Under the pieces are notes generated by a model. The model did not search any database and was not told where the DNA came from. It saw nothing but the letters and a program-made list of their open reading frames with translations. Source: a virus. From it: a stretch of 64,000 nt of DNA. Both the position numbers and the translations under genes were made by a program. The stretch lies in IMG/VR virus record IMGVR_UViG_3300003877_000001, positions 62,001 through 126,000 of that record; one strand, written 5' to 3'. The stretch's first letter is position 1. Each line of letters begins with the position of its first letter. Below are positions 43,094-63,511 of the stretch, one piece after another.

Positions 43094-43164
43094 CACCCAT
43101 AATAGGTTACGCTCCTATGGCTCAACATTCAAAGTGTTGCGAGTTACTATTACCCCATATGGGA
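43094..43164 (-). tRNA. tRNA-Gln(TTG)-like, degenerate
   Basis: Anticodon arm CAACA-CTTTGAA-TGTTG gives TTG. The T-stem ATAGG/CCTAT is perfect but its loop is AGCGTAA instead of TTCRANN, and acceptor pair 1:72 is T-T. Probably a decaying copy. Confidence 0.5.
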
Positions 43165-43172
43165 ATATTTTG

Positions 43173-43245
43173 GGTGTTCGACCAGAATCGAACAGGCATT
43201 ACTTGAATCACAATCAAGCGTGTTTACCGTTATACTACGAACACC
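43173..43245 (-). tRNA. tRNA-His(GTG), second copy
   Basis: Anticodon arm CTTGA-TTGTGAT-TCAAG. An extra G at -1 faces C73, the His identity feature. One T-T mismatch in the T-stem. Confidence 0.75.
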
Positions 43246-43250
43246 ATTTG

Positions 43251-43323
43251 CTGACCTATCTGGAATCGAACCAGAATCTCCAAATTCAAAATTTGGCGTA
43301 ATAAACCGTTATACAATAAGTCA
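43251..43323 (-). tRNA. tRNA-Gln(TTG)
   Basis: Acceptor TGACTTA/TAGGTCA, anticodon arm CCAAA-TTTTGAA-TTTGG, T-arm TCTGG-TTCGATT-CCAGA, G73. No encoded CCA. Confidence 0.88.
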
Positions 43324-43328
43324 ATATG

Positions 43329-43401
43329 GGTGTTTAATGGAAATCGAATCCATACCTTCGGGGTCACGACCCGACAATGCTACCGTTACAACATAAACAC
43401 C
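43329..43401 (-). tRNA. tRNA-His(GTG)
   Basis: G-1/C73 present, acceptor GTGTTTA/TAAACAC, anticodon arm TCGGG-TCGTGAC-CCCGA, T-arm ATGGA-TTCGATT-TCCAT. Position 33 is C instead of the usual T. Confidence 0.8.
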
Positions 43402-43406: not shown

Positions 43407-43463
43407 ATAACTTTTCATATATGAAACAAAAACAATCAATATGTTTCATATATGAAAAGTTAT
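43407..43463. repeat. 21-bp perfect inverted repeat between tRNAs
   Basis: ATAACTTTTCATATATGAAAC and its exact complement are separated by 15 nt, between tRNA-His and tRNA-Pro. In the transcript it makes a long hairpin without a U-run, so RNA processing is more likely than termination. Confidence 0.8.
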
Positions 43464-43466
43464 AAG

Positions 43467-43542
43467 TCGGGTAAGAGGGAATCGAACCCCCATGATGTCT
43501 TCGTCCCAAACGAAGCGACTTACCTGATTAGTCCATTACCCG
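43467..43542 (-). tRNA. tRNA-Pro(TGG)
   Basis: Acceptor CGGGTAA/TTACCCG, anticodon arm CTTCG-TTTGGGA-CGAAG with G37 typical of tRNA-Pro, T-loop TTCGATT, A73. Confidence 0.87.
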
Positions 43543-43568
43543 ATATTAATAAATCAAAGAACAATAAG

Positions 43569-43644
43569 TCTAAGTGACAGGAGTTGAACCTGTAAATAAT
43601 CTCGATTCCAAGTCGAGCAACCACACCTCATGGATCGCACCTAG
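43569..43644 (-). tRNA. tRNA-Pro(TGG)-like
   Basis: Acceptor CTAGGTG/CACTTAG, anticodon arm CTCGA-CTTGGAA-TCGAG, T-arm ACAGG-TTCAACT-CCTGT. Anticodon reads TGG, but position 37 is A, unusual for Pro. First tRNA of the minus-strand cluster. Confidence 0.75.
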
Positions 43645-43690
43645 ATATTTAATATTAAAATTTGTAACGTTTTACAAAAGTATGAACATA

Positions 43691-43726
43691 AAAAAACCCT
43701 GTTCATTTTGATGTGAACAGGGTTCT
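43691..43726 (-). terminator. attenuator terminator of the Pro/His/Gln tRNA operon
   Basis: 11-bp stem AACCCTGTTCA/TGAACAGGGTT with an 8-nt loop, followed by a run of U in the minus-strand RNA. Lies between the leader ORF and the first tRNA. Confidence 0.88.
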
Positions 43727-43749
43727 ATTAATTATTATAATTACAATAG

Positions 43750-43833
43750 TTAACTAGACATATTCTCCCCGTTCAACATCTGATGTTGATGCTGCGGTTG
43801 GGGTTGACCTACTATGTTAACTAATCTTTTCAT
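43750..43833 (-). CDS. leader peptide of the Pro/His/Gln tRNA operon
   Basis: 27 codons. After MKRLVNIV comes GQPQPQHQHQ, then MLNGENMSS and stop. Nine consecutive codons (CAA CCC CAA CCG CAG CAT CAA CAT CAG) are Gln, Pro or His, exactly the amino acids of the downstream tRNAs. The following codons contain TGAACGGGG, which can pair with the terminator's 5' arm. The peptide itself probably has no function; ribosome position on it would be the signal. Confidence 0.85.
   Translation of the reverse strand: MKRLVNIVGQPQPQHQHQMLNGENMSS
43767..43775 (-). promoter_or_regulatory. antiterminator arm in the leader
   Basis: TGAACGGGG in the leader RNA pairs with CCCTGTTCA (43714-43722) of the terminator: 9 bp with one G-U. 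Pairing excludes the terminator. A ribosome stalled on the Gln/Pro/His codons just upstream would leave this arm free. Confidence 0.75.
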
Positions 43834-43874
43834 TGTTCTATTTTTTAATTCAACGCAATTATAATACATATAAT

Positions 43875-43990
43875 TTAAATAAACAAGTCATTTTGCAAAA
43901 AACTTTTACCTACCCTCAGTTATTACACTAGGGAGAAGCTATTTTCTTTTCTTTTTTAAAGACTTAACTTAAACGTTTAAGCGATAACTT
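43875..43990 (-). promoter_or_regulatory. structured 5' leader RNA of the Pro/His/Gln operon
   Basis: About 160 nt of transcript precede the leader ORF. It contains the hairpin GCGA-AGTTA-TCGC, the palindrome CTTAAACGTTTAAG, and a CCCT-AGT...ACT-AGGG hairpin. No matching riboswitch class is recognised. Confidence 0.45.
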
Positions 43991-43997
43991 CGCTTTC

Positions 43998-44037
43998 TTG
44001 CTAATAAATACGTAGTACTTTAGGTTTTGGTTACAAA
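43998..44037 (-). promoter_or_regulatory. promoter of the minus-strand tRNA operon
   Basis: On the minus strand: TTTTGTAACC, about 15 nt, then ACGTATTTATT. Same class as the promoters of the other tRNA units. Confidence 0.6.
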
Positions 44038-44068
44038 AATTTAAAATTTATTTTTATTAAACTATAAT

Positions 44069-44078
44069 GTATTTATAA
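44069..44078 (+). promoter_or_regulatory. late-type promoter box
   Basis: GTATTTATAA, 10 nt before the ATG at 44089. Confidence 0.55.
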
Positions 44079-44088
44079 TAAAGATTTT

Positions 44089-47006: not shown

Positions 47007-47045
47007 CTTGCATCTTAACTAAACCTTTTTTATATTTGCAACGTA
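47007..47045 (+). promoter_or_regulatory. promoter of the plus-strand tRNA operon
   Basis: CTTG at 47007-47010 and TATATTTG at 47031-47038 are 20 nt apart, a good match to the Bacteroidota TTTG/TAnnTTTG consensus. Predicted start of RNA is near 47045. Confidence 0.7.
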
Positions 47046-47089: not shown

Positions 47090-47209
47090 ATGAAGAATTC
47101 AAGAACAATTTTAAACACCAATATGGAAGCCATGTTATGGTCAGTTGCGGAAGCAGTTGAGGTGGACGATTTGTGTCTAGGGTCTTCAGGAGAAGGTGAA
47201 TTAGTTTAA
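47090..47209 (+). CDS. leader peptide of the large plus-strand tRNA operon
   Basis: 39 codons. After MKNSRTILNTN comes MEAMLWSVAEAVEVDDLCL, then GSSGEGELV and stop. The middle stretch uses Met, Glu, Ala, Leu, Trp, Ser, Val, Asp and Cys codons. tRNAs for Ala (2), Glu, Val, Trp, Asp, Met and Leu follow downstream. GGGTCTTCA (Gly-Ser-Ser codons) at 47180-47188 can pair with the segment overlapping the terminator. The composition makes sense only as a ribosome-sensing leader. Confidence 0.82.
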   Translation: MKNSRTILNTNMEAMLWSVAEAVEVDDLCLGSSGEGELV

Positions 47210-47241
47210 CTACTAAAACATCCAAACGAAATTGAAGACCC
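47180..47241 (+). promoter_or_regulatory. antiterminator pairing (attenuator)
   Basis: GGGTCTTCA (47180-47188) pairs perfectly over 9 bp with TGAAGACCC (47233-47241). The last three bases are also the start of the terminator's 5' arm, so the two hairpins compete. Confidence 0.8.
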
Positions 47242-47268
47242 AATCCTAACAGATTGGGTTTTTTGTTT
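47236..47268 (+). terminator. attenuator terminator of the plus-strand tRNA operon
   Basis: CCCAATC-CTAACA-GATTGGG followed by TTTTTTG, 27 nt after the leader stop and before the first tRNA. Confidence 0.88.
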
Positions 47269-47637: not shown

Positions 47638-47709
47638 GGGGAGTTAGTATAATGGCTATTATTATTGACTTGCACTCAATGGATAAGGGTTCGACTCCCT
47701 TACTCTCCA
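47638..47709 (+). tRNA. tRNA-Ala(TGC)
   Basis: Acceptor GGGGAGT/ACTCTCC with G3-T70, anticodon arm ATTGA-CTTGCAC-TCAAT, T-arm AAGGG-TTCGACT-CCCTT, A73. The 135 nt before it hold no recognised gene. Confidence 0.9.
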
Positions 47710-47888
47710 CTAATGTTGAAAGGAAGCGGTTGTTTATAGACTATCGACAGCATAAGATTAGTATCGGCTTTATGTGTAATATGACGACTCTAACATGGTC
47801 TGGCTTTTCCAACATCATATATTGAAACCGTACTCGTACTGTTAGATTACACCAATATGTGAAAGAACTATAAACTCAACATTTATTT
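47710..47888 (+). other. intergenic region with a long-range hairpin
   Basis: No gene seen. ATGTTG near 47713 can pair with CAACAT near 47810, enclosing about 90 nt. Possibly a structured RNA or a degraded tRNA. Confidence 0.3.
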
Positions 47889-47960
47889 GCTCGGTTCGTC
47901 TAACGGTTAGGACGGGTGGTTTTCAGCCATCAGATAGGGGTTCGATTCCCCTACCGAGTA
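47889..47960 (+). tRNA. tRNA-Glu(TTC)
   Basis: Acceptor GCTCGGT/ACCGAGT, anticodon arm GGTGG-TTTTCAG-CCATC, T-arm AGGGG-TTCGATT-CCCCT, A73. Confidence 0.92.
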
Positions 47961-48011
47961 CTTTTGGTCGTTTTTGTACCTTTGTAATATTTATAATTAA
48001 ACATTGTAAAT

Positions 48012-48656
48012 ATGGCAAGAAAACAAAAGAAATATCATTATTTGTATAAGACAACAAATAATTTAAACGGTAAATACTATTATGGTATGCATAGTACTGA
48101 TGATTTAAATGATGGTTATTATGGTTCAGGTAAAAGATTAAGATATTCGATTAATAAATATGGTAAAGAAAATCATAGTGTTGAAGTATTAGAGTTCTTT
48201 GAAAATAGAATTGATTTAAAAAATAAAGAAAAGGAGATTATTAATTTAAATGAAATTGCCAAAAAAGATTGTATGAATTTAGTTGTTGGTGGTGGTGGTG
48301 GATTAATAGGATTATCTGAAGACAAAAGAGAAAATATTCGTAATGGTGCATCTAAATTTTTAAAAGAAAAATGGAAAGACCCTTCATATAGAAAAATGCA
48401 AATAAAACTTTCTTCGGAAAGAATAAAAAAAACACATAAAGAAGGAAAACTTAAATATAATAATTTTAAAAATAAATATCATAATGAAGAAAGTAAAAGA
48501 AAAATGAGTGAATCTAGCAAGGGAATGGGAAAAGGGAAAAGTAACTCCCAATATGGAACATGTTGGATAACAAAAAATGATGTTAATAAAAAAATTAAAT
48601 TATTTGATTTAAATGACTATATAAAAAACGATTGGATTAAAGGTCGTATAATATAA
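48012..48656 (+). CDS. GIY-YIG homing endonuclease
   Basis: 214 aa. HYLYKTTNNLNGKYYYGMHS with GYYGSGKRLRYSINKYGKEN is a GIY-YIG variant (YLY...YYG) as in Seg-type phage enzymes. NUMOD3-like repeats (NEESKRKMSESSKG) follow. Inserted in the tRNA cluster between tRNA-Glu and a Glu-bodied tRNA. Confidence 0.82.
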   Translation: MARKQKKYHYLYKTTNNLNGKYYYGMHSTDDLNDGYYGSGKRLRYSINKYGKENHSVEVLEFFENRIDLKNKEKEIINLNEIAKKDCMNLVVGGGGGLIGLSEDKRENIRNGASKFLKEKWKDPSYRKMQIKLSSERIKKTHKEGKLKYNNFKNKYHNEESKRKMSESSKGMGKGKSNSQYGTCWITKNDVNKKIKLFDLNDYIKNDWIKGRII

Positions 48657-48665
48657 ATTTTGATC

Positions 48666-48727
48666 CTTACCTTTGGTTTGGATTCTACAAAGGTTTTCAA
48701 CGTTGAACCCGTTAATCAACGTTGTTT
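48666..48727 (+). repeat. inter-tRNA hairpin element, copy 1
   Basis: Two adjacent hairpins: CCTTTG...CAAAGG, then TCAACGTTGA...TCAACGTTG. A second copy lies at 49026-49089, also just 5' of a tRNA. Confidence 0.75.
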
Positions 48728-48729
48728 AT

Positions 48730-48805
48730 GATCGGTTCGTCTAATGGAACTAGGATAGGTGGGGTCAAAAGCCACCAGATAGAGGTTTAAATCCTTTACC
48801 GATTA
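48730..48805 (+). tRNA. tRNA with Glu-like body and CAA anticodon
   Basis: Acceptor GATCGGT/ACCGATT, D-stem and variable loop (AGATA) nearly identical to tRNA-Glu at 47889. The anticodon region GGTGG-GGTCAAAAG-CCACC gives either a 9-nt loop or a 7-nt loop with a G-G closing pair, in which case the anticodon is CAA (Leu). T-loop is TTTAAAT. Confidence 0.6.
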
Positions 48806-48812
48806 CTATGAA

Positions 48813-48935
48813 TTGTTAGTGGTGGAACAGGTATACACTATCACCGTTGAAGGTGGTTTGTAGGGGTTATAGAAAACCCCTGCTGCATGGTAACATGTGG
48901 GACATCCCTTGTAGGTTCGAGTCCTACCTAGTGGT
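48813..48935 (+). tRNA. class II tRNA-like gene, unresolved
   Basis: Leu-type D-arm (GTGGAACAGGTATACAC) and a good T-arm GTAGG-TTCGAGT-CCTAC; acceptor TTGTTAG/CTAGTGG pairs only with several G-U. About 40 nt more than a normal Leu/Ser tRNA lie between anticodon arm and T-arm. Anticodon not certain. Confidence 0.4.
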
Positions 48936-48946
48936 TCATAATTTAT

Positions 48947-49019
48947 TGGGTGTTCGTCTAGTGGCAAAGGCATCTGTTTTACATGCAGAATATCGTGGGT
49001 TCGAGTCCCACACACCCAA
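48947..49019 (+). tRNA. tRNA-Val(TAC)
   Basis: Acceptor TGGGTGT/ACACCCA, anticodon arm TCTGT-TTTACAT-GCAGA, T-arm GTGGG-TTCGAGT-CCCAC, A73. Confidence 0.92.
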
Positions 49020-49025
49020 CTGGTC

Positions 49026-49089
49026 TTTACCTTATGGTCTGGATTTAAAAAAGGTTTTCAACGTTGAACCAGATATCAACGTTGTTTTA
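49026..49089 (+). repeat. inter-tRNA hairpin element, copy 2
   Basis: ACCTT...AAGGT hairpin then TCAACGTTGA...TCAACGTTG, matching copy 1 at 48666-48727; directly upstream of tRNA-Trp. Confidence 0.75.
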
Positions 49090-49092
49090 TAT

Positions 49093-49165
49093 TCGCTCTT
49101 GGTGATCAACGGTAACATAGCAGTCTCCAAAACTGAAGATGAAAGTTCAAATCTTTCAGGGCGAG
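49093..49165 (+). tRNA. tRNA-Trp(CCA)
   Basis: Acceptor TCGCTCT/AGGGCGA, anticodon loop CTCCAAA, T-arm GAAAG-TTCAAAT-CTTTC, G73 as expected for Trp. Confidence 0.88.
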
Positions 49166-49199
49166 CAAAGTAGTTGAAAATCAACTAGTTATAACATAA

Positions 49200-49270
49200 C
49201 GTCCATTGGTGTAATGATAACATGATCGGTTGTCTCCCGATTGCCGAGGGTTTGATTCCCTCATGGACGG
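49200..49270 (+). tRNA. tRNA-Asp(GTC)
   Basis: Acceptor CGTCCAT/ATGGACG, anticodon arm ATCGG-TTGTCTC-CCGAT, T-arm GAGGG-TTTGATT-CCCTC, G73. Confidence 0.9.
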
Positions 49271-49671
49271 CAAAATTTTGTAGTCGTTCTTGTGTTGGTA
49301 AATATAGAGCAAATAAAGTAAAAAAATCAAATAAAGTTAGACGAAGTAAAAATGAAATCTATTTTGCGGATTTATGTATAGAATATTTTAAAAATGTTGA
49401 AACTAATGAAAAAATTTTTAATGGATGGGATGCTGATGTTATTATTCACGATATTAAAATAGCAATTTTATGGAATGGTAAATGGCATTATGAAAAAATA
49501 ATCAAAAATCATTCAGTAAAACAAGTACAAAATAGGGATAGATTGAAATTAATTGAAATTAAAAATTATGGATATGAACCGTACATAATAAAAGATATGG
49601 GTTCATATAATAAAAAGTTTGTTGAAGAACAATTCAAAGAATTTATAAATGCCGATGTCGCCAAGTGGTAA
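49271..49671 (+). pseudogene. truncated homing-endonuclease-like fragment
   Basis: The frame runs out of tRNA-Asp as KFCSRSCVGKY (zinc-finger remnant), then NEIYFADLCIEYFKNVETNE, DADVIIHDIKIAILWNGKWH and a Lys-rich end, resembling the restriction-like core of Vsr/EDxHD-type endonucleases. There is no in-frame ATG after the tRNA, so it is probably a fragment left by insertion or recombination at the tRNA. Its end overlaps tRNA-Met. Confidence 0.55.
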
Positions 49672-49722
49672 GGCACATTTCTCATAAGAATGTATACGAG
49701 TGTTCGATTCACTCCATCGGTA
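49651..49722 (+). tRNA. tRNA-Met(CAT)
   Basis: Acceptor GCCGATG/CATCGGT, anticodon arm CATTT-CTCATAA-GAATG, T-arm GAGTG-TTCGATT-CACTC, A73. Could be elongator Met or, if C34 becomes lysidine, Ile (ATA). Confidence 0.85.
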
Positions 49723-49740
49723 CAAAATTTTTAAATAAAT

Positions 49741-49770
49741 TGTAACCTTTTAAAAAAGTTTACGTATTAT
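49741..49770 (+). promoter_or_regulatory. TTGTAACC-class promoter
   Basis: TGTAACC, about 12 nt, then TTTACGTATTATAAA, directly before the ATG at 49777. Confidence 0.55.
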
Positions 49771-49776
49771 AAATAT

Positions 49777-50220
49777 ATGGTTGATAAAGAAATATGTAGA
49801 TTTAAATATGAAGATATTGAATATCAAATAAGCCATTTAATATTTCAATATGGTAATATTAAAATTTCAATGCCTAGTATATTAATTACAACCAAATCTT
49901 CTAATAGTAAAAGAAGTACATATGTAAGTAAAACTGATGGACATTATAACTTAGTTGGATTGAATAACCCAATTAAATTAATTAGAAAAATTAGTAATAT
50001 TTACAATGATGAACTTAAATCTTTTGATTATGTTTGTTTTAGTGCACATACAGATGCAACAGATAAATGTACTGAAGTATATGGTGGCATTCTTAATAAA
50101 ATGGGATTTGTTAAATTATTAAATAATAAATATTATCATTTTTATAGTAGAAAAGATAAAAAACTAAAACGTAAAGAAGTTGTTAAAATTTTTAAAGATT
50201 TTGAAATTTATTTACATTAA
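49777..50220 (+). CDS. hypothetical protein, weakly GNAT-like
   Basis: 147 aa. FDYVCFSAHTDATDK followed by NKMGFVKL and YYHFYSRK has the order of the last strands of a GNAT acetyltransferase, but no acetyl-CoA loop is clear. Flanked on both sides by TTGTAACC promoters. Confidence 0.5.
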   Translation: MVDKEICRFKYEDIEYQISHLIFQYGNIKISMPSILITTKSSNSKRSTYVSKTDGHYNLVGLNNPIKLIRKISNIYNDELKSFDYVCFSAHTDATDKCTEVYGGILNKMGFVKLLNNKYYHFYSRKDKKLKRKEVVKIFKDFEIYLH

Positions 50221-50221
50221 T

Positions 50222-50254
50222 ATGTAACCTTTTAAAAAAGTTTACGTATATTTG
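50222..50254 (+). promoter_or_regulatory. internal promoter of the tRNA cluster
   Basis: TGTAACC, about 17 nt, ACG, then TATATTTG (50247-50254), a perfect Bacteroidota -7 box. Initiation near 50260 would place the 5' end of tRNA-Asp almost at the transcript start. Confidence 0.7.
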
Positions 50255-50264
50255 AAATATAAAC

Positions 50265-50336
50265 GGAGCATTGGTCTAACGGCTAGGATATATGACTATC
50301 ACTCATAGGGTAGGGGTTCGATTCCCCTATGTTCCG
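50265..50336 (+). tRNA. tRNA-Asp with anticodon ATC
   Basis: Acceptor GGAGCAT/ATGTTCC, anticodon arm TATGA-CTATCAC-TCATA, T-arm AGGGG-TTCGATT-CCCCT, G73. The anticodon reads ATC, with A34 instead of the standard G34. Confidence 0.8.
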
Positions 50337-50346
50337 CACTGGTCAT

Positions 50347-50465
50347 TAAAGTATGGTGTAATGTGCACGATACTTCCATGTACCGACCAACGATAGCCTA
50401 TTAGTATGGTGACAATAGGTTGGCAACAGAAGTAAAGGATTAAGGTTAAATTCCTTATTACTTGA
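50347..50465 (+). tRNA. interrupted tRNA-like gene
   Basis: 5' half TAAAGTA-TG-GTG...CAC and 3' half AAGTA...TAAGG-TTAAATT-CCTTA-TTACTTG-A are separated by a ~45-nt hairpin-forming insert (CCTATT...AATAGG). Anticodon unclear. Suggestive but not proven. Confidence 0.3.
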
Positions 50466-50909
50466 AGACCTAAAAAAATATGCTGTAATGGAATGAAGTG
50501 AAAACGATAAAGTATAATGCATTGAAATATCGTGGAAACTATTAGTCACTAGCGATAATTGGCATTAATCATTTAACATAGGGGTAATTTCCTATTATGG
50601 GTTCGAGTCCCCAATATGGCACAAAATTATGGTATGATGGAATTGGTATACATGTGGGTGTGACCTTCGAAAGAATAGGTGCAGATCAAACGGATATGTT
50701 AACAAATGAAGTAAAAGGGTTAAATGATGATTTAAATGTCTTGGCTTAAAATAGTTTCAATATTTAAATATGTAGTTTATCGTTAAGGTTCAATTCCTTA
50801 TACTTCACAAAAGTCTGGCAGAAGTATGCGATAGGTACGACAATACCGATAGCAGAAAATGAAGGACACATTGAACTCGAAGCATTGTCGTGTGGAGATA
50901 GTAAATGTT
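50466..50909 (+). other. unresolved tRNA-like / structured RNA stretch
   Basis: No protein gene. T-arm-like motifs occur at about 50600 (GGGTTCGAGTCCC) and 50788 (TAAGGTTCAATTCCTTA), and a Leu-type D-arm at about 50640 (ATGGAATTGGTATACAT), but they do not assemble into normal-length tRNAs. They may be interrupted or decayed tRNAs. A copy of the ATCAAACGGATAT hairpin is at 50685-50697. Confidence 0.35.
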
Positions 50910-50981
50910 TAACTAGTGGACAAGTGGTAAAGTCGCCCCTTTTAAATGGGGAGAACGTGGGTTCGAATCCTACCTAGTTAA
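50910..50981 (+). tRNA. tRNA-Leu(TAA)-like with short variable loop
   Basis: Perfect acceptor TAACTAG/CTAGTTA, D-stem GAC/GTC, T-arm GTGGG-TTCGAAT-CCTAC, A73. The anticodon arm CCCCT-TTTAAAT-GGGGA gives anticodon TAA with a C-A mismatch; an 8-nt loop is the alternative. The variable region is 4 nt, unlike normal tRNA-Leu. Confidence 0.65.
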
Positions 50982-51209
50982 CTAAACTTCTGTGATGTGG
51001 AAGAATTGAAGTTCATGTTTGTTTAATATTTGGGTCGCTCCTGAATACTGACAATAAAGAATAGTTTATATTTGAGGTGAGTACGTATTAACCGATATAT
51101 GAAGTTACTATTTTGAATGAACGCACTTCGCACTCGTCAAAGGGAGAGAAAGCAGGTTCGATACCTGTCTACGCTACAAATATTATATCAAACGGATATA
51201 ATTTAAAAT
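50982..51209 (+). other. unresolved region with one tRNA 3' half
   Basis: Contains a clear T-arm GCAGG-TTCGATA-CCTGT and CTACGCT-A at about 51152-51177 but no convincing 5' half. A TATATCAAACGGATATA hairpin closes the region at 51184-51200. Confidence 0.3.
51184..51200 (+). repeat. TATATCAAACGGATATA hairpin repeat
   Basis: A 17-nt hairpin element, repeated at 51371-51387 and 51623-51639 and partly at 50685-50697, each time between RNA genes. Probably a processing signal. Confidence 0.75.
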
Positions 51210-51364
51210 TAACTAATGGCAGAGTGGCTTAATGCGGATGTCTAGTTCTATATGATTGATAGAGGGTGAACTTCTTTATCTTTTGCTCATGAACGGAAAC
51301 AATTACCCTGATTACGAGAAGCAAATATCGAAAGGGGTCATAGGTTCGAATCCTATTTAGTTAG
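51210..51364 (+). tRNA. interrupted Ser-type tRNA-like gene
   Basis: Acceptor TAACTAA/TTAGTTA, Ser-type D-arm (GCAGAGTGGCTTAATGC), T-arm ATAGG-TTCGAAT-CCTAT and G73 are all good. GATGT can pair with ATATC as the anticodon stem, but about 75 extra nt lie between T33 and the 3' part of the loop. Anticodon not secure. Confidence 0.5.
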
Positions 51365-51370
51365 CAATAT

Positions 51371-51387
51371 TATATCAAACGGATATA
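51371..51387 (+). repeat. TATATCAAACGGATATA hairpin repeat
   Basis: Second full copy, between the Ser-type and Leu genes. Confidence 0.75.
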
Positions 51388-51397
51388 ATGAAAATAT

Positions 51398-51616
51398 GAG
51401 GATGTGGTGGAAAGGTAAACACGCTTGTTTTAGAATAAGTACAAAGTTCATTTGGGAATAAATAATACTGATGAAGAGATGAATACCATAATGCTTACTG
51501 CTTAGTTGAACCAAGTTACCCTTCGGGATATGTCGGTAAAATAGAAATCGAAATCTAAATGATAGTAGAGGTAAGAGAGAAAGTCTGGTTTGAGGGTTCG
51601 AGTCCTTCCATCTTCA
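51398..51616 (+). tRNA. tRNA-Leu(TAG) interrupted by a ~135-nt insert
   Basis: 5' part (51398-51430): acceptor GAGGATG, Leu D-arm, anticodon 5' stem CTTGT and TT. 3' part (51566-51616): TAGAG, stem GTAAG, 16-nt variable arm, T-arm GAGGG-TTCGAGT-CCTTC, acceptor CATCTTC, A73. Joined they give an 84-nt tRNA-Leu with a proper stem and anticodon TAG. The insert sits after T33, ends in G, and shares TAGA at both junctions. Confidence 0.65.
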
Positions 51617-51622
51617 CTAAAT

Positions 51623-51639
51623 TATATCAAACGGATATA
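51623..51639 (+). repeat. TATATCAAACGGATATA hairpin repeat
   Basis: Third full copy, 16 nt upstream of the tmRNA 5' end. Confidence 0.75.
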
Positions 51640-51655
51640 ATAAAAATTGAAATAT

Positions 51656-52009
51656 GGGGGTAACAGGAATTGACAGGATACGATAGGTAGACGGTGCAAG
51701 TATGAGGAAATTGCTCTACTCATTAAAAATAGGTAATGAACGTTTAAGTGGCGAAGCACTTGCAATGGCAGCATAACCGAAAGGTTTTTGTACCATTCGA
51801 GATACCACCAACTAGGTAGGTGTTCTCATAGATACTGATCACGTAAAGAGATCAAAAAATGTTGTGGAACATAAAACCAAAAAGTCTAATGTAATAAAGT
51901 GTTTGTAAATAAAAAACATAATGACTTAAAAATAATAAACAAACTAAACTTGTGAATGACTTTTTATTTGTAATATAACTGGACAGGAGTTCAAGTCTCC
52001 TTACTTCCA
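51656..52009 (+). ncRNA. ssrA: transfer-messenger RNA (tmRNA)
   Basis: Acceptor GGGGGTA/TACTTCC includes a G3-T pair as in tRNA-Ala. The 5' end ACAGGAATTGACAGG resembles the tmRNA D-domain. T-arm AGGAG-TTCAAGT-CTCCT, A73. Length 354 nt is typical. The reading frame before the pseudoknot region ends GNERLSGEALAMAA-stop (51732-51776); the exact resume codon is inferred. tmRNA rescues stalled ribosomes and tags the peptide for proteolysis. Confidence 0.85.
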
Positions 52010-52015
52010 CAATAT

Positions 52016-52112
52016 GGTGATCTATTGGTATCTACACGCCTTTCATCGGGAAGTAGAAGGATAACTTTAATGATGAATATGAGTTATATTGGTTCGAATC
52101 CCCTGATCGCCA
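52016..52112 (+). tRNA. tRNA-like gene, unresolved
   Basis: Acceptor GGTGATC/GATCGCC and T-loop TTCGAAT are good, A73 present. The T-stem is weak, and a hairpin ATAACT...AGTTAT occupies the variable region. Anticodon in the TTTCATC segment is uncertain (TTC or TCA). Confidence 0.45.
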
Positions 52113-52130
52113 CTTAAATAAAAAACTAAT

Positions 52131-52544
52131 ATGGATATTGAAAAGTTTAAAAGGGATATGAAAGAAGATATGGAAAATCCTGATGGTTTCTTTGCTAGAT
52201 TGGCAAAAAAAAATGCTAATCTTGAGAAAAGATATAATAAATTTGAAAAATGGTTAGAAACAAACGAGTTTGAACCTATTTTCCAAAAATTGCTAGAAAA
52301 AAATGGTGATGAAAGAAGTACATATTGTTTTAATAAAGGACATGAAAAAAATGGTACACCTTTAATGGAATTTCTTTGTGGCTATATAACTACTAGAATT
52401 GAAACTGTTGAAAATGAAAAATTTAGTGGTGATTTTAGTTCTGGTATTTGGTTTTTTAAAGATTATTGGTTTCAATTAATTTGTGGTCAAGGATGTTTTT
52501 GGAAAATATATAATAAAGATTTTGAATGTATTGAACACGTATAG
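52131..52544 (+). CDS. hypothetical protein
   Basis: 137 aa: charged helical N-terminus and a C-terminal aromatic/Cys-containing part (GIWFFKDYWFQLICGQGCFW). Unrecognised. Ends in an overlap with a 25-codon ORF. Confidence 0.55.
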   Translation: MDIEKFKRDMKEDMENPDGFFARLAKKNANLEKRYNKFEKWLETNEFEPIFQKLLEKNGDERSTYCFNKGHEKNGTPLMEFLCGYITTRIETVENEKFSGDFSSGIWFFKDYWFQLICGQGCFWKIYNKDFECIEHV

Positions 52545-52621
52545 TGGAGCAATACTTGAAATGGTTAGAAGCCTTAAATGAAAATAGAGAATTAAGAATA
52601 AGATTAAATAAAGATGTTTAA
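52544..52621 (+). CDS. 25-aa linking ORF
   Basis: GTG start within the previous stop; VEQYLKWLEALNENRELRIR... forms a helix. Overlaps the next ATG by 8 nt. Could be a coupling peptide. Confidence 0.35.
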   Translation: MEQYLKWLEALNENRELRIRLNKDV

Positions 52622-52811
52622 TATAGGTTTTTTAATTGATAGATATTGGTGGGATATTAAACATAATAAACCACATAATTCTTTAATTGAAGGAGATACC
52701 TCTACAACAACTAACTTAGGATATTTTAAATTAGTAGATGATGAATATAAATTAACAGAGGAAGGTATTAAAAGTTATAAAAAAATGAGAAGAAATAATG
52801 AGAAAGAATAA
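52614..52811 (+). CDS. small hypothetical protein
   Basis: 65 aa. YFKLVDDEYKLTEEGIKSYK resembles the end of a winged-helix domain. Function unknown. Confidence 0.5.
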   Translation: MFNIGFLIDRYWWDIKHNKPHNSLIEGDTSTTTNLGYFKLVDDEYKLTEEGIKSYKKMRRNNEKE

Positions 52812-52855
52812 AATACATAGTGAACGATTATCCACCACTGAAGCAGATTTAAGAT

Positions 52856-52930
52856 GCCAGCGTGGTGGACGTGGGAATACACGACATTTTTAAGCGATGT
52901 TTTTCGAGGGTTCGAGTCCCTCCGTTGGTA
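52856..52930 (+). tRNA. tRNA-Leu(TAA) with short variable loop
   Basis: Acceptor GCCAGCG/CGTTGGT, Leu-type D-arm, anticodon arm ACATT-TTTAAGC-GATGT, T-arm GAGGG-TTCGAGT-CCCTC, A73. The variable region is only 5 nt (TTTTC), atypical for tRNA-Leu. Confidence 0.75.
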
Positions 52931-52981
52931 CTAATTTATTTTCGAATAGGCACACATAAAAAAATAAATCTAAAAAAGAAA

Positions 52982-53239
52982 ATGAGTGCAATAAACAACA
53001 GGGAGTATCCTAAATGTATATTTTGTGGAAAATTTTGCTTTAAACATAAAAGAAAATATTGTTCAAGAGATTGTTATAATAAAGACATGGAATTAAATAT
53101 TCCTAAAGTACCTGAATTATTAAAAATGTTTAAAAAATATAAAACATTTGTTAGGGTTGGGAAAGAATTTAATGTAAGTGATAATGCTGTTAGAAAATGG
53201 TGTATTAAATATGGTATATTAGAAATGATTAATAAATAA
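52982..53239 (+). CDS. zinc-finger/helix-turn-helix protein
   Basis: 85 aa from the ATG at 52982; the longer frame would overlap tRNA-Leu. CIFCGKFCFKHKRKYCSRDC is a zinc finger of the type found in homing endonucleases. VRVGKEFNVSDNAVRKWCIK is a helix-turn-helix. No nuclease domain, so it may be a regulator or an endonuclease remnant. Confidence 0.6.
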   Translation: MSAINNREYPKCIFCGKFCFKHKRKYCSRDCYNKDMELNIPKVPELLKMFKKYKTFVRVGKEFNVSDNAVRKWCIKYGILEMINK

Positions 53240-53245
53240 TATAAA

Positions 53246-53509
53246 ATGAATAAAACAGAAATAAAGAAAGCATTATATAAGCAAAAGCCAAAGGCTGAAT
53301 TTACACATATTAGAAGAGGTATTGCTTATTATAATACAATATTAAGAATAGAAGAAGAACCATATAGTCATTCAGTATTTTTTGAAATACCTGTTGATGA
53401 TATGGGTGATGCAGACTTTGATAAGCAAATGGATGCAAAATTACTTAATCGTTGGATTGTTGATATACTCATTTTAACAAAAAAAGAAGGTGATTTAAAA
53501 ATGCCCTAA
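53246..53509 (+). CDS. conserved hypothetical protein
   Basis: 87 aa. NKTEIKKALYKQKPKAEFTH resembles a small protein common in phages of Bacteroidota and Cyanobacteria. Its 3' end overlaps tRNA-Leu(CAA) by 7 nt. Confidence 0.55.
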   Translation: MNKTEIKKALYKQKPKAEFTHIRRGIAYYNTILRIEEEPYSHSVFFEIPVDDMGDADFDKQMDAKLLNRWIVDILILTKKEGDLKMP

Positions 53510-53587
53510 TGGTGAAAAGGTAGACACGGCAGGTTCAAACCCTGTTGCTAATAAACTGGCGTGTAGGTTCGAATCCTACTTAGGGTA
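53503..53587 (+). tRNA. tRNA-Leu(CAA)
   Basis: Normal class II: acceptor GCCCTAA/TTAGGGT, anticodon arm GCAGG-TTCAAAC-CCTGT, long variable arm, T-arm GTAGG-TTCGAAT-CCTAC, A73. Confidence 0.92.
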
Positions 53588-53588
53588 C

Positions 53589-53906
53589 ATGAATGGAAAA
53601 GATGATATTGTTGGTGCAAAATTTGCTTTAGTTAAAGAAGGTGATTTAGTTGTTCATATGAGTAGGGAATCTTATGATGATTTAATGCATGAAGTTATTG
53701 AAGAGTTAAGAAAACAAATTATGATTAAAGTAAAAGAAGTTACAAAGTATATGGATGGTGGAACAACTAAATATATTGATGAAAAAGGTAATGAATATTT
53801 TAAAGACAATAGATTAGGTACAAAAACTAAAGGTAAAATTTTTGATAAATATCCTAAAGAAGAAGATGCTAAAATATTAGATGTTGAACTTGAAATATTA
53901 TTGTGA
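53589..53906 (+). CDS. hypothetical protein
   Basis: 105 aa. The ATG lies 2 nt after tRNA-Leu. Helical N-terminus (DDLMHEVIEELRKQIMIKVK). Unrecognised. Confidence 0.5.
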   Translation: MNGKDDIVGAKFALVKEGDLVVHMSRESYDDLMHEVIEELRKQIMIKVKEVTKYMDGGTTKYIDEKGNEYFKDNRLGTKTKGKIFDKYPKEEDAKILDVELEILL

Positions 53907-54096
53907 TGAACAAAGACATTTAGTGTGTGTTCCTTATTCAAAAGAGAACCTACATTTGATGGCTGATGATTTAAACATCAAAAGATGTTGGTTTCATAAA
54001 GATCATTATGATATACCTAAAAGAAGAATAAAAGAAATAAGTGCAAAGTGCACAATAATTAATAGTAAAGAAATAGTTAAAATAATAAGAAAATGA
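53881..54096 (+). CDS. DUF4031-like protein
   Basis: 71 aa, overlapping the previous gene by 26 nt. RHLVCVPYSKENLHLMADDL and CWFHKDHYDIPKRRIKEISA match DUF4031-type proteins (conserved His and Tyr), whose function is unknown. The exact start is uncertain. Confidence 0.6.
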   Translation: MLNLKYYCDEQRHLVCVPYSKENLHLMADDLNIKRCWFHKDHYDIPKRRIKEISAKCTIINSKEIVKIIRK

Positions 54097-54186
54097 ACAG
54101 AATTAACAACATATTTGAAAGTGAACAAGAGATTAATTCTGCTCTAGTGATATAGTATAACGGTCACCGAGCAGACGTAAAACTAT

Positions 54187-54261
54187 GCTCGGTTGGACAA
54201 CGGTAGGTTAAGTCACCACCCTTTCAAGGTGGTATAACGGGTTCGACCCCCGTACCGAGTA
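54187..54261 (+). tRNA. tRNA-Glu(TTC), second gene
   Basis: Acceptor GCTCGGT/ACCGAGT identical to the first tRNA-Glu; anticodon arm CCACC-CTTTCAA-GGTGG; T-arm ACGGG-TTCGACC-CCCGT; A73. A tRNA-like 5' fragment (TATAGTATAACGGTCAC) lies just upstream at about 54151-54168. Confidence 0.88.
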
Positions 54262-54288
54262 CAAAAATAATAAATTTAAAGAGTCATA

Positions 54289-54422
54289 TTGATTAGTGGG
54301 TTGGGTTTGATTTCGACTGTTACTCTGATCAGGGGTGTTATTAGCGGTTTAAAACGTGAACACATTTGTAAGTATTTGGTAGGTAAGTTCGACTCTTGCT
54401 ACTTATTAACAACACTAATTAA
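54289..54422 (+). ncRNA. structured RNA with a T-arm-like module
   Basis: The ends close in a 10-bp stem, TTGATTAGTG with CACTAATTAA, extended by TTG/CAA. Inside are GATTTCGACTG near the 5' side and a T-arm-like GTAAG-TTCGACT-CTTGC with TACTT/AAGTA pairing. It cannot be folded as a normal tRNA. A terminal stem plus a tRNA-like module recalls bacterial Y RNAs; this is only a resemblance. Confidence 0.45.
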
Positions 54423-54500
54423 TTTAACTTTTAAAATATGATTAGTTATCATATAAAAATATACTTAACTATTAACATATTGGTAGTTATAATGAAATAT

Positions 54501-54586
54501 TGTGAGTTGGAGAAGTTGGTATCTCGCTGGTTTCATAAGCCAGAGTCCCTACGGGGTTTACGGGGGTTCGAATCCCTCACTCGCTA
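54501..54586 (+). tRNA. class II-type tRNA with CAT anticodon, copy 1
   Basis: D-stem GAG/CTC, anticodon arm CTGGT-TTCATAA-GCCAG, long variable arm with TCCC-TAC-GGGG, T-arm GGGGG-TTCGAAT-CCCTC, acceptor TGTGAGT/ACTCGCT with unpaired 1:72, A73. Confidence 0.75.
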
Positions 54587-54615
54587 CTAAAAAGAATTAA
54601 AAATAAATAAGAAAA

Positions 54616-54648
54616 TTGTAACATATTAAAAATATTTACGTATATTTG
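54616..54648 (+). promoter_or_regulatory. promoter of the tandem structured RNAs
   Basis: TTGTAAC (from 54616), 18 nt, then TATATTTG (54641-54648). Predicted transcript start near 54655. Confidence 0.7.
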
Positions 54649-54654
54649 TAATAT

Positions 54655-54718
54655 AACAGACAACAAAAGTTCCTATAATTTATATTTGGATAAAAAATAC
54701 TTTTCGTCTGTTTTTTTA
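54655..54718 (+). ncRNA. short structured RNA ending in a terminator (element 1)
   Basis: AGAC-AAC-AAAAGT...ACTTTT-C-GTCT followed by GTTTTTTT. GTTCCTATAA lies in the 5' part of the loop. Begins at the predicted transcription start. Confidence 0.6.
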
Positions 54719-54731
54719 TAAATTAAAACAT

Positions 54732-54804
54732 AAAGGTAAATGATGTTCCTATAAAACTCAATAGGGGAAACCCTATTTTTACTGTAAATACATCTCACCT
54801 TTTT
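54732..54804 (+). promoter_or_regulatory. second structured element with a terminator-like U-run (element 2)
   Basis: AAAGGT...ATGATG pairs with CATC...ACCTTT followed by TTTT. It again carries GTTCCTATAA and an inner AATAGGG-GAAA-CCCTATT hairpin. Ends 13 nt before the ATG of the 584-aa gene, so it may be a cis-regulatory leader. Confidence 0.55.
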
Positions 54805-54817
54805 AAAAAATTAAATT

Positions 54818-56572
54818 ATGAAAACTTTAGAACTATTTAATGCGGTTGTAAAAAAAGATACAAAAGATAATGTTTTTGTATCAGAAGATGGATATATTAT
54901 CGAATCTGGTGCTTTATGGGCAAAAGATAGAATTGTAACCTATTATAATAGTCGTAGATTAAATGGTAATGATTTAAATAAAACATTTCATAAATCATGG
55001 TTAAAAATAAAAAATAGTTCAAGATATGAACTATTGGTTGATCAAATAAAACATTATATATCTACATATGGTAGTGGATTTAAAGATGATGTTTATATCC
55101 CTGATGAAGTATTAGATATTTCAGGATTAAAAATATCATTTAAAGTTGTTAAAGCATATACTAAAGATGAATTAATTGATAAATCATTATCATTACTTCA
55201 ATCTGGTATTGCTTTGAAAGAAGAAACAATAAATGATTTATTATCAATTCTTGTAGATGAACTTGATTATGAATTTACTGGTAAAGAAAATATTCGTAAC
55301 AAAGAAGCAATAATTAAAATTGCAGATATATATGGGGTATTACCAATAGATACTATGGAGTTTTTTAGATATATTATCTATCGTACAACAGGACAATCAT
55401 TATTAATTAAAAATTATAAAATGATTGAATTGATAAAAGATAGTAATTATAATCCATCTGCACAATTTAAGAAATTTGGATTAGAAAAACTTTCTGAAAT
55501 ATTTAATAGATTTAAGCCGTTATTTTTAGCTTTTAAACCTAAATGTAGTGGTACTATTAATAGAATTTCAAAGTTATCTAAAAAATATCATAAGCCACTT
55601 CTTAGTAATCCATTAAATGAAGTAACTTCGGTTACATTTAATGAAGGTGATGATCACTGGTTAGATAATGCAACACCATTTGCTTTATTTAAAGCATTGT
55701 CTGCTTGTTGGACAAGAATGAATGGACAAGATGCTTTTGTATATAGAATTAGAAATGGTAAATCATTTGCTAAGATGAATTCTACTGATGCAGGTATTGC
55801 AGGATATAATTATGGACATATTCTTAATTATATTAAAAATAGATTTGATCTTTCAGGTAAGAAAATATTTCTTCCAGAAGATGTAGAATATGCTTTACCA
55901 ACATCTGAAAAGATGTACGTAGGTAATGTTCCAACAGGAACAAGATTCTATGGTAATGCTCTTGCTGTTGGTATTTATTGGAAAAACTCTTGGGGTGCAA
56001 CTGACCTTGATTTATCTGGTTTGAATATCGGTGGAAAAGTCGGTTGGAATTCAGATTATAAACAAGGTGGATCATTGTATTTCTCTGGTGATATTACCAA
56101 CGCACCTAATGGTGCTGTTGAGTATCTTTATGCAAATAGAGGACTTAGTGAACCAACTTTGGTAATGAATAATGTATTTAGTGGAAACCCTGATTCAGAA
56201 TTCAAGATCATCGTAGGTAAAGGTGATAATATCAATAAGAATTATATGATGAACCCTGAAAAGTTGTTCGTGGATATTAAGACACAATCAGTTCAAACTC
56301 AAAGTGTGTTAGGTATATTTCTTCCAGTTGGTAACGAGAGACAATCTTTTGTTATTTTGAACTTCGGTTCTGGTAGAGAACATATTTCTAGTTATGGTGA
56401 AGTTGCAAATATAACAACAAAGGCACTTTATCAACAATGGAACAATGCACTTACTTTGAGAGAAGTAATTGGAAAATTAGGTGTTGAATTTGTTACTGAT
56501 CCTGAAAAGGCAGATAATGATTTAAGTTTAAATACAATTGAAAAAGATTCTATAATGAATCTTTTTATATAA
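54818..56572 (+). CDS. large hypothetical protein, TerD-like C-terminal half
   Basis: 584 aa. The N-terminal ~300 residues are helical (ALWAKDRIVTYYNSRRL, LLVDQIKHYISTYGSG). Residues about 370-480 (WGATDLDLSGLNIGGKVGWN, GGSLYFSGDITNAPNGAVEY) have the DLDL and SGD pattern of TerD-like domains. Codon use is relatively strong, and it is preceded by two structured RNA elements. A helical domain joined to a TerD-like domain beside tRNA-like RNA suggests an RNA- or stress-related role; the function is unknown. Confidence 0.55.
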   Translation: MKTLELFNAVVKKDTKDNVFVSEDGYIIESGALWAKDRIVTYYNSRRLNGNDLNKTFHKSWLKIKNSSRYELLVDQIKHYISTYGSGFKDDVYIPDEVLDISGLKISFKVVKAYTKDELIDKSLSLLQSGIALKEETINDLLSILVDELDYEFTGKENIRNKEAIIKIADIYGVLPIDTMEFFRYIIYRTTGQSLLIKNYKMIELIKDSNYNPSAQFKKFGLEKLSEIFNRFKPLFLAFKPKCSGTINRISKLSKKYHKPLLSNPLNEVTSVTFNEGDDHWLDNATPFALFKALSACWTRMNGQDAFVYRIRNGKSFAKMNSTDAGIAGYNYGHILNYIKNRFDLSGKKIFLPEDVEYALPTSEKMYVGNVPTGTRFYGNALAVGIYWKNSWGATDLDLSGLNIGGKVGWNSDYKQGGSLYFSGDITNAPNGAVEYLYANRGLSEPTLVMNNVFSGNPDSEFKIIVGKGDNINKNYMMNPEKLFVDIKTQSVQTQSVLGIFLPVGNERQSFVILNFGSGREHISSYGEVANITTKALYQQWNNALTLREVIGKLGVEFVTDPEKADNDLSLNTIEKDSIMNLFI

Positions 56573-56579
56573 ATATTAA

Positions 56580-56700
56580 AGACGATTAGTAACACGTTGG
56601 CTTCGTGTTGAAATTGTGGGATAACGTGCCTGATAGCTGAAAAGCAAAAAGAACCACCCACTGAAAGGAAAGTTCGCAACTAAACCTGCTTTTCTAGTTT
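56580..56700 (+). ncRNA. structured intergenic RNA candidate
   Basis: AACACG-TTGGCTT-CGTGTT hairpin and GTGGG...CCCAC pairing between the 584-aa gene and the next tRNA. No known RNA class recognised. Confidence 0.35.
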
Positions 56701-56719
56701 GAAACGTAAACTAGTATAT

Positions 56720-56803
56720 CGTGAGTTGGAGAAGTGGCATCTCGCTGTCCTCATAAGGTAGAGTCCCTACGGGTTTACGAAGGTTCGAGTCCTTCACTCG
56801 CTA
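56720..56803 (+). tRNA. class II-type tRNA with CAT anticodon, copy 2
   Basis: Paralogue of 54501-54586: same D-arm, anticodon arm CTGTC-CTCATAA-GGTAG, variable arm with CCC-TAC-GGG, T-arm GAAGG-TTCGAGT-CCTTC, acceptor CGTGAGT/ACTCGCT with unpaired 1:72, A73. Confidence 0.75.
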
Positions 56804-57036
56804 CTAAACTATAAGAATATGAAAAATAACATACCGCTTGGAAGCGGAATACATGTTAAATACTGTTACAGGTTCGTTGAGAACTTCACGTTTTTCTATC
56901 TCGTTAATCGAACAAGGTTAATCACCTTTTGCGGATCACGAATAGAATTTATCGGTGATTCCTCTCCCCCTTTATAGTCAAGATACTAATTATACTTGTG
57001 GATGTGCATGTATTAGAATGATATTAAATCATTTTT
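56804..57036 (+). other. gene-free stretch with hairpins
   Basis: No gene seen. CCGCTT-GG-AAGCGG at about 56835-56848 and AAGGT-TAATC-ACCTTTT (terminator-like) at about 56917 suggest a short RNA or read-through control. Confidence 0.35.
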
Positions 57037-63204: not shown

Positions 63205-63288
63205 ATGACAAAAGTTAATACATATAAGAAATATAAAAACTATCCAGATACTGGATCAGGTATTCTATGTACTAACTTTGGTGGCTAA
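63205..63288 (+). CDS. leader peptide of the tRNA-Tyr unit
   Basis: 27 codons. TKVNTYKKYKNYPDT (three Tyr, four Lys, two Asn, three Thr) is followed by GSGILCTNFGG. The codons ACT GGA TCA GG contain TGGATCAGG, which can pair with the terminator. tRNA-Tyr is the first gene after the terminator. Confidence 0.78.
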   Translation: MTKVNTYKKYKNYPDTGSGILCTNFGG

Positions 63289-63323
63289 AGCCATAAAGTT
63301 TAAAATATAGAAACCCTGATTCA
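63252..63323 (+). promoter_or_regulatory. antiterminator pairing (attenuator)
   Basis: TGGATCAGG (63252-63260) pairs with CCTGATTCA (63315-63323), 9 bp with one G-U, and thereby consumes the terminator's 5' arm. Confidence 0.75.
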
Positions 63324-63344
63324 GAAATGAGTCAGGGTTTTTTT
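63308..63344 (+). terminator. attenuator terminator of the tRNA-Tyr unit
   Basis: CCCTGATTCA-GAAA-TGAGTCAGGG, 10 bp with one T-G and a GAAA loop, then TTTTTTT. Ten nt before tRNA-Tyr. Confidence 0.9.
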
Positions 63345-63353: not shown

Positions 63354-63434
63354 TGTACGGTTGAACAGGTGGTGAGTTCCGCACACTGTAAATGTGCTGC
63401 TTCGGCTATGGGGGTTCGATTCCCTTCCGTACAA
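63354..63434 (+). tRNA. tRNA-Tyr(GTA)
   Basis: Perfect acceptor TGTACGG/CCGTACA, D-stem GAAC/GTTC, anticodon arm GCACA-CTGTAAA-TGTGC, extended variable arm, T-loop TTCGATT, A73. Confidence 0.92.
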
Positions 63435-63511
63435 CAATTAACATTGTTAATTGAATTAGACTATATTAAAAAGTAATATAGTTCAAAAAACAATATTAAA
63501 ATTGTCATAGA

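Follow-up and report, generated by a model that had tools for sequence, protein, structure and literature searches.

Leader peptides matched in codon content to the tRNA operons that they precede in a 326-kb phage and in other phages: candidate transcription attenuators

The Pro/His/Gln tRNA locus

The DNA considered here (hereafter the window) is a stretch of 64,000 nucleotides from a virus record of 325,854 bp, a 326-kb phage (G000) that carries 49 tRNAs and has T4-like packaging and head genes. The first of its tRNA operons (op1) lies on the minus strand and contains, in the direction of transcription, the following features.

43856..43886, minus strand: promoter-like sequence, TTG-N20-TATAATTG, 22 nt upstream of the leader; a match to the Bacteroidetes consensus only
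43750..43833, minus strand: leader peptide ORF of 27 codons, MKRLVNIVGQPQPQHQHQMLNGENMSS
43780..43806, minus strand: regulatory codons QPQPQHQHQ (region 1), an in-set run of nine
43767..43776, minus strand: region 2, the antiterminator strand, TTGAACGGGG, complementary to the terminator 5' arm (p=0.010)
43693..43726, minus strand: intrinsic terminator (regions 3:4), 13 bp and a T run
43568..43644, minus strand: tRNA-Pro(TGG), ARAGORN and Rfam
43466..43542, minus strand: tRNA-Pro(TGG), ARAGORN and Rfam
43328..43400, minus strand: tRNA-His(GTG), ARAGORN and Rfam
43250..43323, minus strand: tRNA-Gln(TTG), ARAGORN and Rfam
43172..43244, minus strand: tRNA-His(GTG), ARAGORN and Rfam
43094..43164, minus strand: tRNA-Gln(TTG), the sixth tRNA; Rfam tRNA hit of 44.5 bits, missed by ARAGORN, anticodon read by eye

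The original prediction had placed here a 27-codon leader with Pro, His and Gln codons, a strong terminator, and tRNAs for Pro, Pro, His, Gln and His followed by a Gln-like gene. All of these are present, the last as the Rfam hit, and the tRNA array indeed lies downstream of the leader, while its end had been set too early, the array reaching 43094. Codons 10-18 of the leader (CAA CCC CAA CCG CAG CAT CAA CAT CAG) all specify Pro, His or Gln, and with the codon use of G000 the chance of nine consecutive residues of this set is about 8e-11 per site. The Pro and Gln codons chosen are rare, CCC and CCG together accounting for 27 of the 410 Pro codons and CAG for 23 of the 386 Gln codons counted in the window. 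Such rarity may raise the sensitivity of the leader, or it may reflect the constraints of pairing. No Pro, His or Gln tRNAs were found outside op1 in the regions of G000 that were examined.

It had also been proposed that a strand just past these codons pairs with the terminator 5' arm. This is borne out by TGAACGGGG (43775-43767), whose pairing with that arm amounts to -16.2 kcal/mol against a shuffle mean of -9.0 (p=0.010) and competes with the terminator's own 3' arm, TGAACAGGG. The folding of the leader region is much stronger than that of its shuffles (z -5.35), and there are 3 terminator-like sites, this terminator among them, against 0.6 in shuffles. An Rfam scan of window positions 42500-44500 returned only tRNA at gathering score, and no amino-acid operon leader (His, Trp, Leu, Thr, Phe or others), T-box or other riboswitch.

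The Bacteroidetes promoter consensus is TTG-N19-TAnnTTTG, and by this consensus the promoters of G000 look Bacteroidetes-like.

Some further features of the surroundings may be mentioned here. A near-perfect long inverted repeat with arms of ~22 bp (TATAACTTTTCATATATGAAAC...) occupies window positions 43401-43471, between the second tRNA-Pro and the first tRNA-His, and in the near-identical contig L005 one arm of this repeat and the beginning of that tRNA-His are lost through a 59-nt deletion. L005 was considered as an independent relative and rejected, being the same phage with this deletion. On the opposite strand, a gene for a 698-aa AAA+/protease-like protein (40521-42617; partial-length match to a PHROG ATP-dependent protease) has its end ~0.5 kb away from that of the op1 array. 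HNH homing endonuclease-like genes occur repeatedly between or beside operon tRNAs (window 42805-43083; L056 1386-1892; L052 1800-2450 and 3430-3850), one of them annotated and the others identified by eye.

Other tRNA operons of the same phage

G000 has four separate tRNA operons, each with a leader matching its own tRNAs and each with its own terminator and a strand complementary to the terminator 5' arm. The features of op2 and op3 within the window are as follows.

47008..47038, plus strand: op2 promoter-like sequence, TTG-N20-TATATTTG
47090..47209, plus strand: op2 leader, MKNSRTILNTNMEAMLWSVAEAVEVDDLCLGSSGEGELV, with the run MEAMLWSVAEAVEVDDL at 47123-47173
47180..47188, plus strand: op2 region 2, GGGTCTTCA, complementary to TGAAGACCC at the terminator (p=0.048)
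47238..47265, plus strand: op2 intrinsic terminator
47638..56804, plus strand: op2 tRNA array with interspersed ORFs (Ala Glu Leu Val Trp Asp Met Asp Leu Leu Leu Glu Met Met)
63205..63288, plus strand: op3 leader, MTKVNTYKKYKNYPDTGSGILCTNFGG
63251..63261, plus strand: op3 region 2, CTGGATCAGGT (p=0.002)
63311..63344, plus strand: op3 intrinsic terminator, ACCCTGATTCAGAAATGAGTCAGGGTTTTTTT
63354..63435, plus strand: tRNA-Tyr(GTA), the first of op3, with three tRNA-Lys just past the window end

The op2 leader (MKNSRTILNTNMEAMLWSVAEAVEVDDL...) precedes tRNAs for Ala, Glu, Leu, Val, Trp, Asp and Met, the op3 leader (MTKVNTYKKYKNYP..., containing YKKYKNY) those for Tyr, Lys, Lys and Lys, and the op4 leader (MKNNNTYISRISNLLTSSICGNGTFNGRR...) those for Thr, Gly, Leu, Ile, Asn, Phe, Ser and Arg. 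The Leu tRNAs of op2 read UUR, and 4 of the 5 Leu codons in its leader are TTR; those of op4 read CUN, and both Leu codons of its leader are CTN (2/2).

Between the op2 terminator and the first tRNA there is a small ORF (window 47288-47431, MIRVYIEDKEKGVVFAYIKDVPAICSQGKTKEEVDKK...) that resembles a HicB-type antitoxin by eye and that, by its position, would share the op2 attenuator. ARAGORN also assigns a tRNA-Pyl(CUA), amber-reading-like, at G000:C1:157717-157787 (L052), and likewise in G009 and the Lak phage (also L267 and L287), outside the leader-controlled arrays.

The arrangement in other phages

Relatives were taken by their large terminase (TerL), and the leaders were not considered in the choice. 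Had relatives kept the tRNAs and lost the leader codons or the pairing, the original prediction would have been refuted; the outcome is in its favour. Two of them, G009 and G010, keep the Pro/His/Gln tRNAs behind diverged leaders (MKNLIHIQPQPQQHPQ... and MKNLVNIVPQPQQHPQ...) that retain the codons, and their antiterminator and terminator sequences differ from those of op1 with mutual complementarity retained. G009 has three operons, with the leaders HIQPQPQQHPQ for Pro/His/Gln, VLDILVSEMAVVLLWADAED for Asp/Glu/Val/Leu/Trp and TTNIFSSISTTTSRIGRTIFCSNFIGRNSN for Thr/Cys/Ile/Ser/Phe/Gly/Asn/Arg. The arrangement is likewise present in G008, G010 and the more distant G013.

The arrangement spans several unrelated phage groups and extends beyond Bacteroidetes phages. 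In Cellulophaga phages, HIQRLPQP stands before the Pro/Gln/His/Leu/Arg tRNAs of phi19:1, and WSYSCFSYSF before the Tyr/Trp/Phe/Ser/Cys tRNAs of phi10:1 (Trp, Ser and Cys assigned by eye). Phage phi17:2 has three such leaders: QRLHLQELEQP before Pro/Glu/Gln/His/Leu/Leu/Arg, TKTGITVIDKTKGARA before Ala/Lys/Ile/Gly/Met/Asp/Thr/Val/Arg and YNNSNWSFSY before Tyr/Ser/Asn/Trp/Phe. The arrangement is also found in Tenacibaculum phage Gundel_1 and in an uncultured 635-kb phage (SKSSSRSSS before Arg/Ser tRNAs), and probably in a Prevotella Lak phage, which is a weaker case. The leaders of Caulobacter phages are RQFVRQIQFVRVNR before Val/Ile/Val/Gln/Asn/Arg/Phe and HTTLPTAKPASTGALTLASWPASSKPLL before Pro/Thr/Lys/Leu/His/Ala/Ser/Trp; leaders of this type are conserved, with divergence, in Karma, Rogue, phiCbK, Colossus, PW and Brevundimonas Domovoi, and CcrSC has the arrangement as well. 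The hypothetical proteins CcrSC gp144, Karma gp083 and phi17:2 gp077 (L296 7923-8042, L302 1106-1243 and L293 4255-4374) probably act as attenuator leader peptides and not as proteins with a function of their own. For CcrSC, the better-placed gp144 replaced an earlier leader candidate, MPSRLTAW....

No such leader was found in the tRNA-rich phages T5, Serratia BF, Vibrio VCPH and crAss001, and none in immuto, with only three tRNAs, or in the LR756508 huge phage. Since several tRNA-rich phages lack it, the leader is not required for phage tRNAs. Searches outward from individual leaders gave the following. Of the YSCFS-type pattern matches, only phi10:1 and Gundel_1 are real; the 80 loci found as capsid-protein relatives of phi10:1 hold no tRNA arrays besides that of phi10:1 itself, and the two relatives of Gundel_1 are both without tRNAs. 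The operon G016_2 (Lys/Lys/Ser) was left uncounted, having no terminator.

Several observations concern the make-up of these operons. The tRNAs of phi19:1 serve only CNN codons (Pro, Gln, His, Leu-UAG and Arg-ACG), and those of phi10:1 and of Gundel_1 op1 correspond in essence to UNN codons (Tyr, Trp, Phe, Ser, Cys), some operons thus being grouped by the first codon base (L053 2353-2944, L055 1554-2105, L056 531-1136). In several phages a promoter -7/-10 box lies just 4-7 nt upstream of the leader ATG (L056 1160-1181, L293 3310-3330, L296 15300-15348), and because of this short distance the leader mRNA would be leaderless and would load a ribosome at once. In G017 (L277 3217-3363) a single operon has tRNAs for 19 amino acids and its 48-residue leader uses 18 of the 19; it resembles a general translation-stall sensor, with an antiterminator pairing of p=0.006.

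Codon matching between leaders and operons

Over 29 leader/operon pairs the mean z of the match is 3.30. Shuffled pairings give 0.01, with a maximum of 1.54, and 0 of 200,000 attain the observed value; the same count (0/200,000) is obtained with 19 pairs, one per lineage or operon type. Apart from a few pairs missing one, leaders contain every tRNA amino acid of their own operon. The match is confined to the coding frame, where the mean z is 3.30 compared with -0.40 and -0.35 out of frame. In operons whose tRNAs read a single codon box, the leader codons favour that box for Leu (p=0.04) and Arg (p=0.003), the value for Ser being 0.23.

For G016_1, phi19:1 and G000_3 the composition match alone is not significant, and for G017_1 and Lak_1 matching is uninformative because too many amino acids are covered. 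Where several ORFs precede one terminator (at most four), the matching ORF was taken, and CcrSC_B and Karma_B were selected for their match. With p-values this small the choice makes no difference overall, but the weak cases G016_1, G017_1 and Lak_1 should carry no weight individually. Anticodons were called by ARAGORN or by eye, and CAU tRNAs may be Met or Ile2.

Terminators, antiterminator pairing and the stall model

As in ribosome-mediated attenuators generally, an intrinsic terminator was found between the leader ORF and the tRNA genes. The terminator scan gave none for Lak_2, G010_2, CcrSC_B, Karma_B and some Caulobacter phages; in Lak_2 and G010_2 a hairpin with a T run is seen by eye. 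Measured against dinucleotide shuffles, the late leader pairs better with the 5' arm of the terminator at p<0.05 in 17 of 19 cases (Fisher 2.5e-16); in G016_1 the pairing is not significant, and an antiterminator strand was also found in the Caulobacter phages. In most leaders ~8-18 nt separate the end of region 2 from the stop codon, so that a terminating ribosome would cover it.

To model a stall, the transcript ending before the terminator 3' arm was folded with its upstream part masked by the ribosome, equilibrium folding serving only as a proxy for the co-transcriptional process. The calculated probability that region 3 (the 5' arm) is sequestered by the antiterminator is 0.68 with the ribosome stalled on matching codons, 0.09 with the ribosome at the stop codon and 0.53 in the ribosome-free RNA, and stall exceeds stop in 19 of 19 cases. 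For op1 the values are 0.87 on the matching codons and 0.09 at the stop. Ten Caulobacter phages follow the same trend, with 0.9-1.0 over most of the codon run.

The free RNAs differ from one leader to another. Compared with the average of 0.53, the antiterminator probability is low in G000_1 (0.11), G010_1 (0.16) and phi19:1 (0.08), and the Caulobacter group has a strong 1:2 hairpin of -16 to -22 kcal/mol. A distance of 26-36 nt separates region 2 from the stop codon beyond it in phi19:1 and the Caulobacter phages, so that their OFF state must use the 1:2 hairpin. In long leaders sensitivity may be uneven, because an early stall is far from region 2.

Proposed mechanism and alternatives

Ribosome-mediated transcription attenuation of the phage tRNA operons is, in our assessment, very probably the best explanation of these data, the evidence being the in-frame and partly codon-box-specific codon content, the terminator, the mutually exclusive antiterminator and the modelled polarity. 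In the proposed mechanism, the RNA polymerase would first produce a short leader mRNA with an ORF in which codons for the amino acids of the downstream tRNAs are abundant. With all of the aminoacyl-tRNAs plentiful, the ribosome would reach the leader stop codon and cover or pass region 2 near the ORF end, and the 3:4 hairpin would form and terminate transcription ahead of the tRNA genes. With any one aminoacyl-tRNA scarce, the ribosome would lag on its codon; region 2, left free, would then pair with the 5' arm of the terminator, and transcription would run on through the tRNA operon, refilling exactly those tRNA pools that run short in infection. That the leader is translated, that termination and read-through take place in cells, and what makes the tRNAs scarce are inferences here; for the last, host anticodon-nuclease (tRNA-cutting) defences or late-infection demand are candidates that the present data do not separate.

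The attenuation reading of op1 is supported by the relatives and by the other operons, while its scope has changed from a single Pro/His/Gln peculiarity to a general design covering 2 to ~14 amino acids. The logic of amino-acid operons first ascribed to it stands as regards the competition between antiterminator and terminator, whereas a dominant 1:2 protector hairpin is missing from most of the free RNAs in equilibrium folding. On the folding model, the classical trp-like scheme would apply to op1, G010_1, phi19:1 and the Caulobacter group, which have the protector hairpin. For most other leaders the lack of a dominant 1:2 hairpin makes a simpler, lagging-ribosome logic likely: in these the antiterminator already forms in the free RNA, and the operon would turn ON whenever the ribosome falls behind the polymerase. 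Such lag-based switching would account for the ability of a single leader to serve many amino acids with no need for precise codon placement.

It is hardly credible that the leaders are coincidental or are ordinary small proteins that happen to precede a terminator. Low-complexity C/A-rich runs can occur by chance, and in IMG/VR the contigs with the exact QPQPQHQHQ codon pattern, apart from the same phage, all show it in unrelated frames without tRNAs; however, none of the 200,000 shuffles reaches the observed matching, and codon content and pairing are retained in leaders whose sequences have diverged. Direct, T-box-like sensing of tRNA by base pairing with an untranslated leader RNA would account for the specificity for tRNAs and for the several leaders without an obvious Shine-Dalgarno sequence. 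We regard it as extremely unlikely, given that the matching holds only in the frame that the ATG sets, that serial codons match up to 14 amino acids, that the distance from region 2 to the stop is similar in most leaders, and that Rfam gave no T-box or riboswitch match in window 42500-44500. The opposite polarity, in which stalling terminates transcription and the tRNAs are made only while the codons are read fast, is very unlikely as well, as region 2, the strand complementary to the 5' arm of the terminator, lies downstream of the codons, and the modelled stall favours antitermination over stop occupancy throughout (19/19).

A different question is what the attenuator serves. It may act as homeostatic feedback, tRNA transcription stopping once charged cognate tRNA suffices, rather than as an emergency answer to tRNA-cutting defences. 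This reading deserves tentative consideration: in the proposed circuit the sensed tRNAs act back negatively on their own transcription in a closed loop, and the matched operons of G000 cover nearly all amino acids, beyond the known nuclease targets. Nothing decisive speaks against it, while the argument of PMC10264068 for an answer to anticodon-nuclease depletion would favour the defence-response reading. On balance we incline to the view that the ribosome-mediated attenuators form a widespread regulatory class in phages of two bacterial phyla, in which each tRNA operon would be self-sensing through a multi-amino-acid leader that reports the charging of its own tRNAs; the phage would measure tRNA loss, for example by host anticodon-nuclease immunity, and replace only what is missing, probably by a simplified lagging-ribosome attenuator.

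Relation to known systems

A leader that lists the amino acids of its own operon would tell what the tRNAs respond to, namely a shortage of the matching charged tRNAs, and would give a concrete reason for phage tRNAs. The ideas of codon compensation and defence evasion would become separable in culturable systems (phiCbK with Caulobacter, phi10:1, phi17:2 and phi19:1 with Cellulophaga, Gundel_1 with Tenacibaculum), and the leaders would supply built-in biosensors of tRNA charging. Small annotated hypothetical proteins, such as the three named above, would be reinterpreted as leaders.

According to PMC10264068, phage tRNAs answer the depletion of host tRNAs by anticodon nucleases, the reason for their carriage having been unclear for more than 50 years. 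The phiCbK genome paper (PMC3556154) predicts terminators and discusses the tRNAs within a codon-compensation model. In neither paper was a mention of leader- or attenuation-type tRNA regulation found, PMC3556154 having neither attenuation nor leader peptides. Both models concern the same kind of genes, including the phiCbK-group arrays, and a regulatory input is added here. In agreement with the original prediction, which knew of no phage example, no description of attenuation on phage tRNA genes with operon-tailored multi-amino-acid leaders was found in searches of the open-licence literature on phage tRNAs and tRNA-operon attenuation, and the literature on Lak phage tRNAs gave nothing relevant.

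Ribosome-mediated attenuation is a classical type of mechanism, represented by the leaders of the amino-acid operons trp, his, leu, thr, ilv and phe and by the pheST leader. Like T-box riboswitches, the phage leaders would make expression respond to a specific uncharged tRNA; unlike them, they appear to sense by translated codons, with many per leader, and the op1 region has no Rfam T-box match. With the amino-acid operon attenuators they share a short ORF with regulatory codons, an intrinsic terminator, a mutually exclusive antiterminator downstream of the codons, a stop codon near region 2 and a predicted ON state upon stalling. They differ in having no Rfam leader family match at op1 and, mostly, no dominant 1:2 protector hairpin in equilibrium folding, in sensing up to 8-14 amino acids per leader, and in governing tRNA genes, in a phage setting, rather than biosynthetic enzymes or synthetases. 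Ribosome-mediated attenuation would in this way be extended to tRNA genes and to the simultaneous sensing of many amino acids: the mechanism itself is known, whereas no account of its use on tRNA genes, in phages, and with multi-amino-acid leaders tailored to each operon was found in the literature searched.
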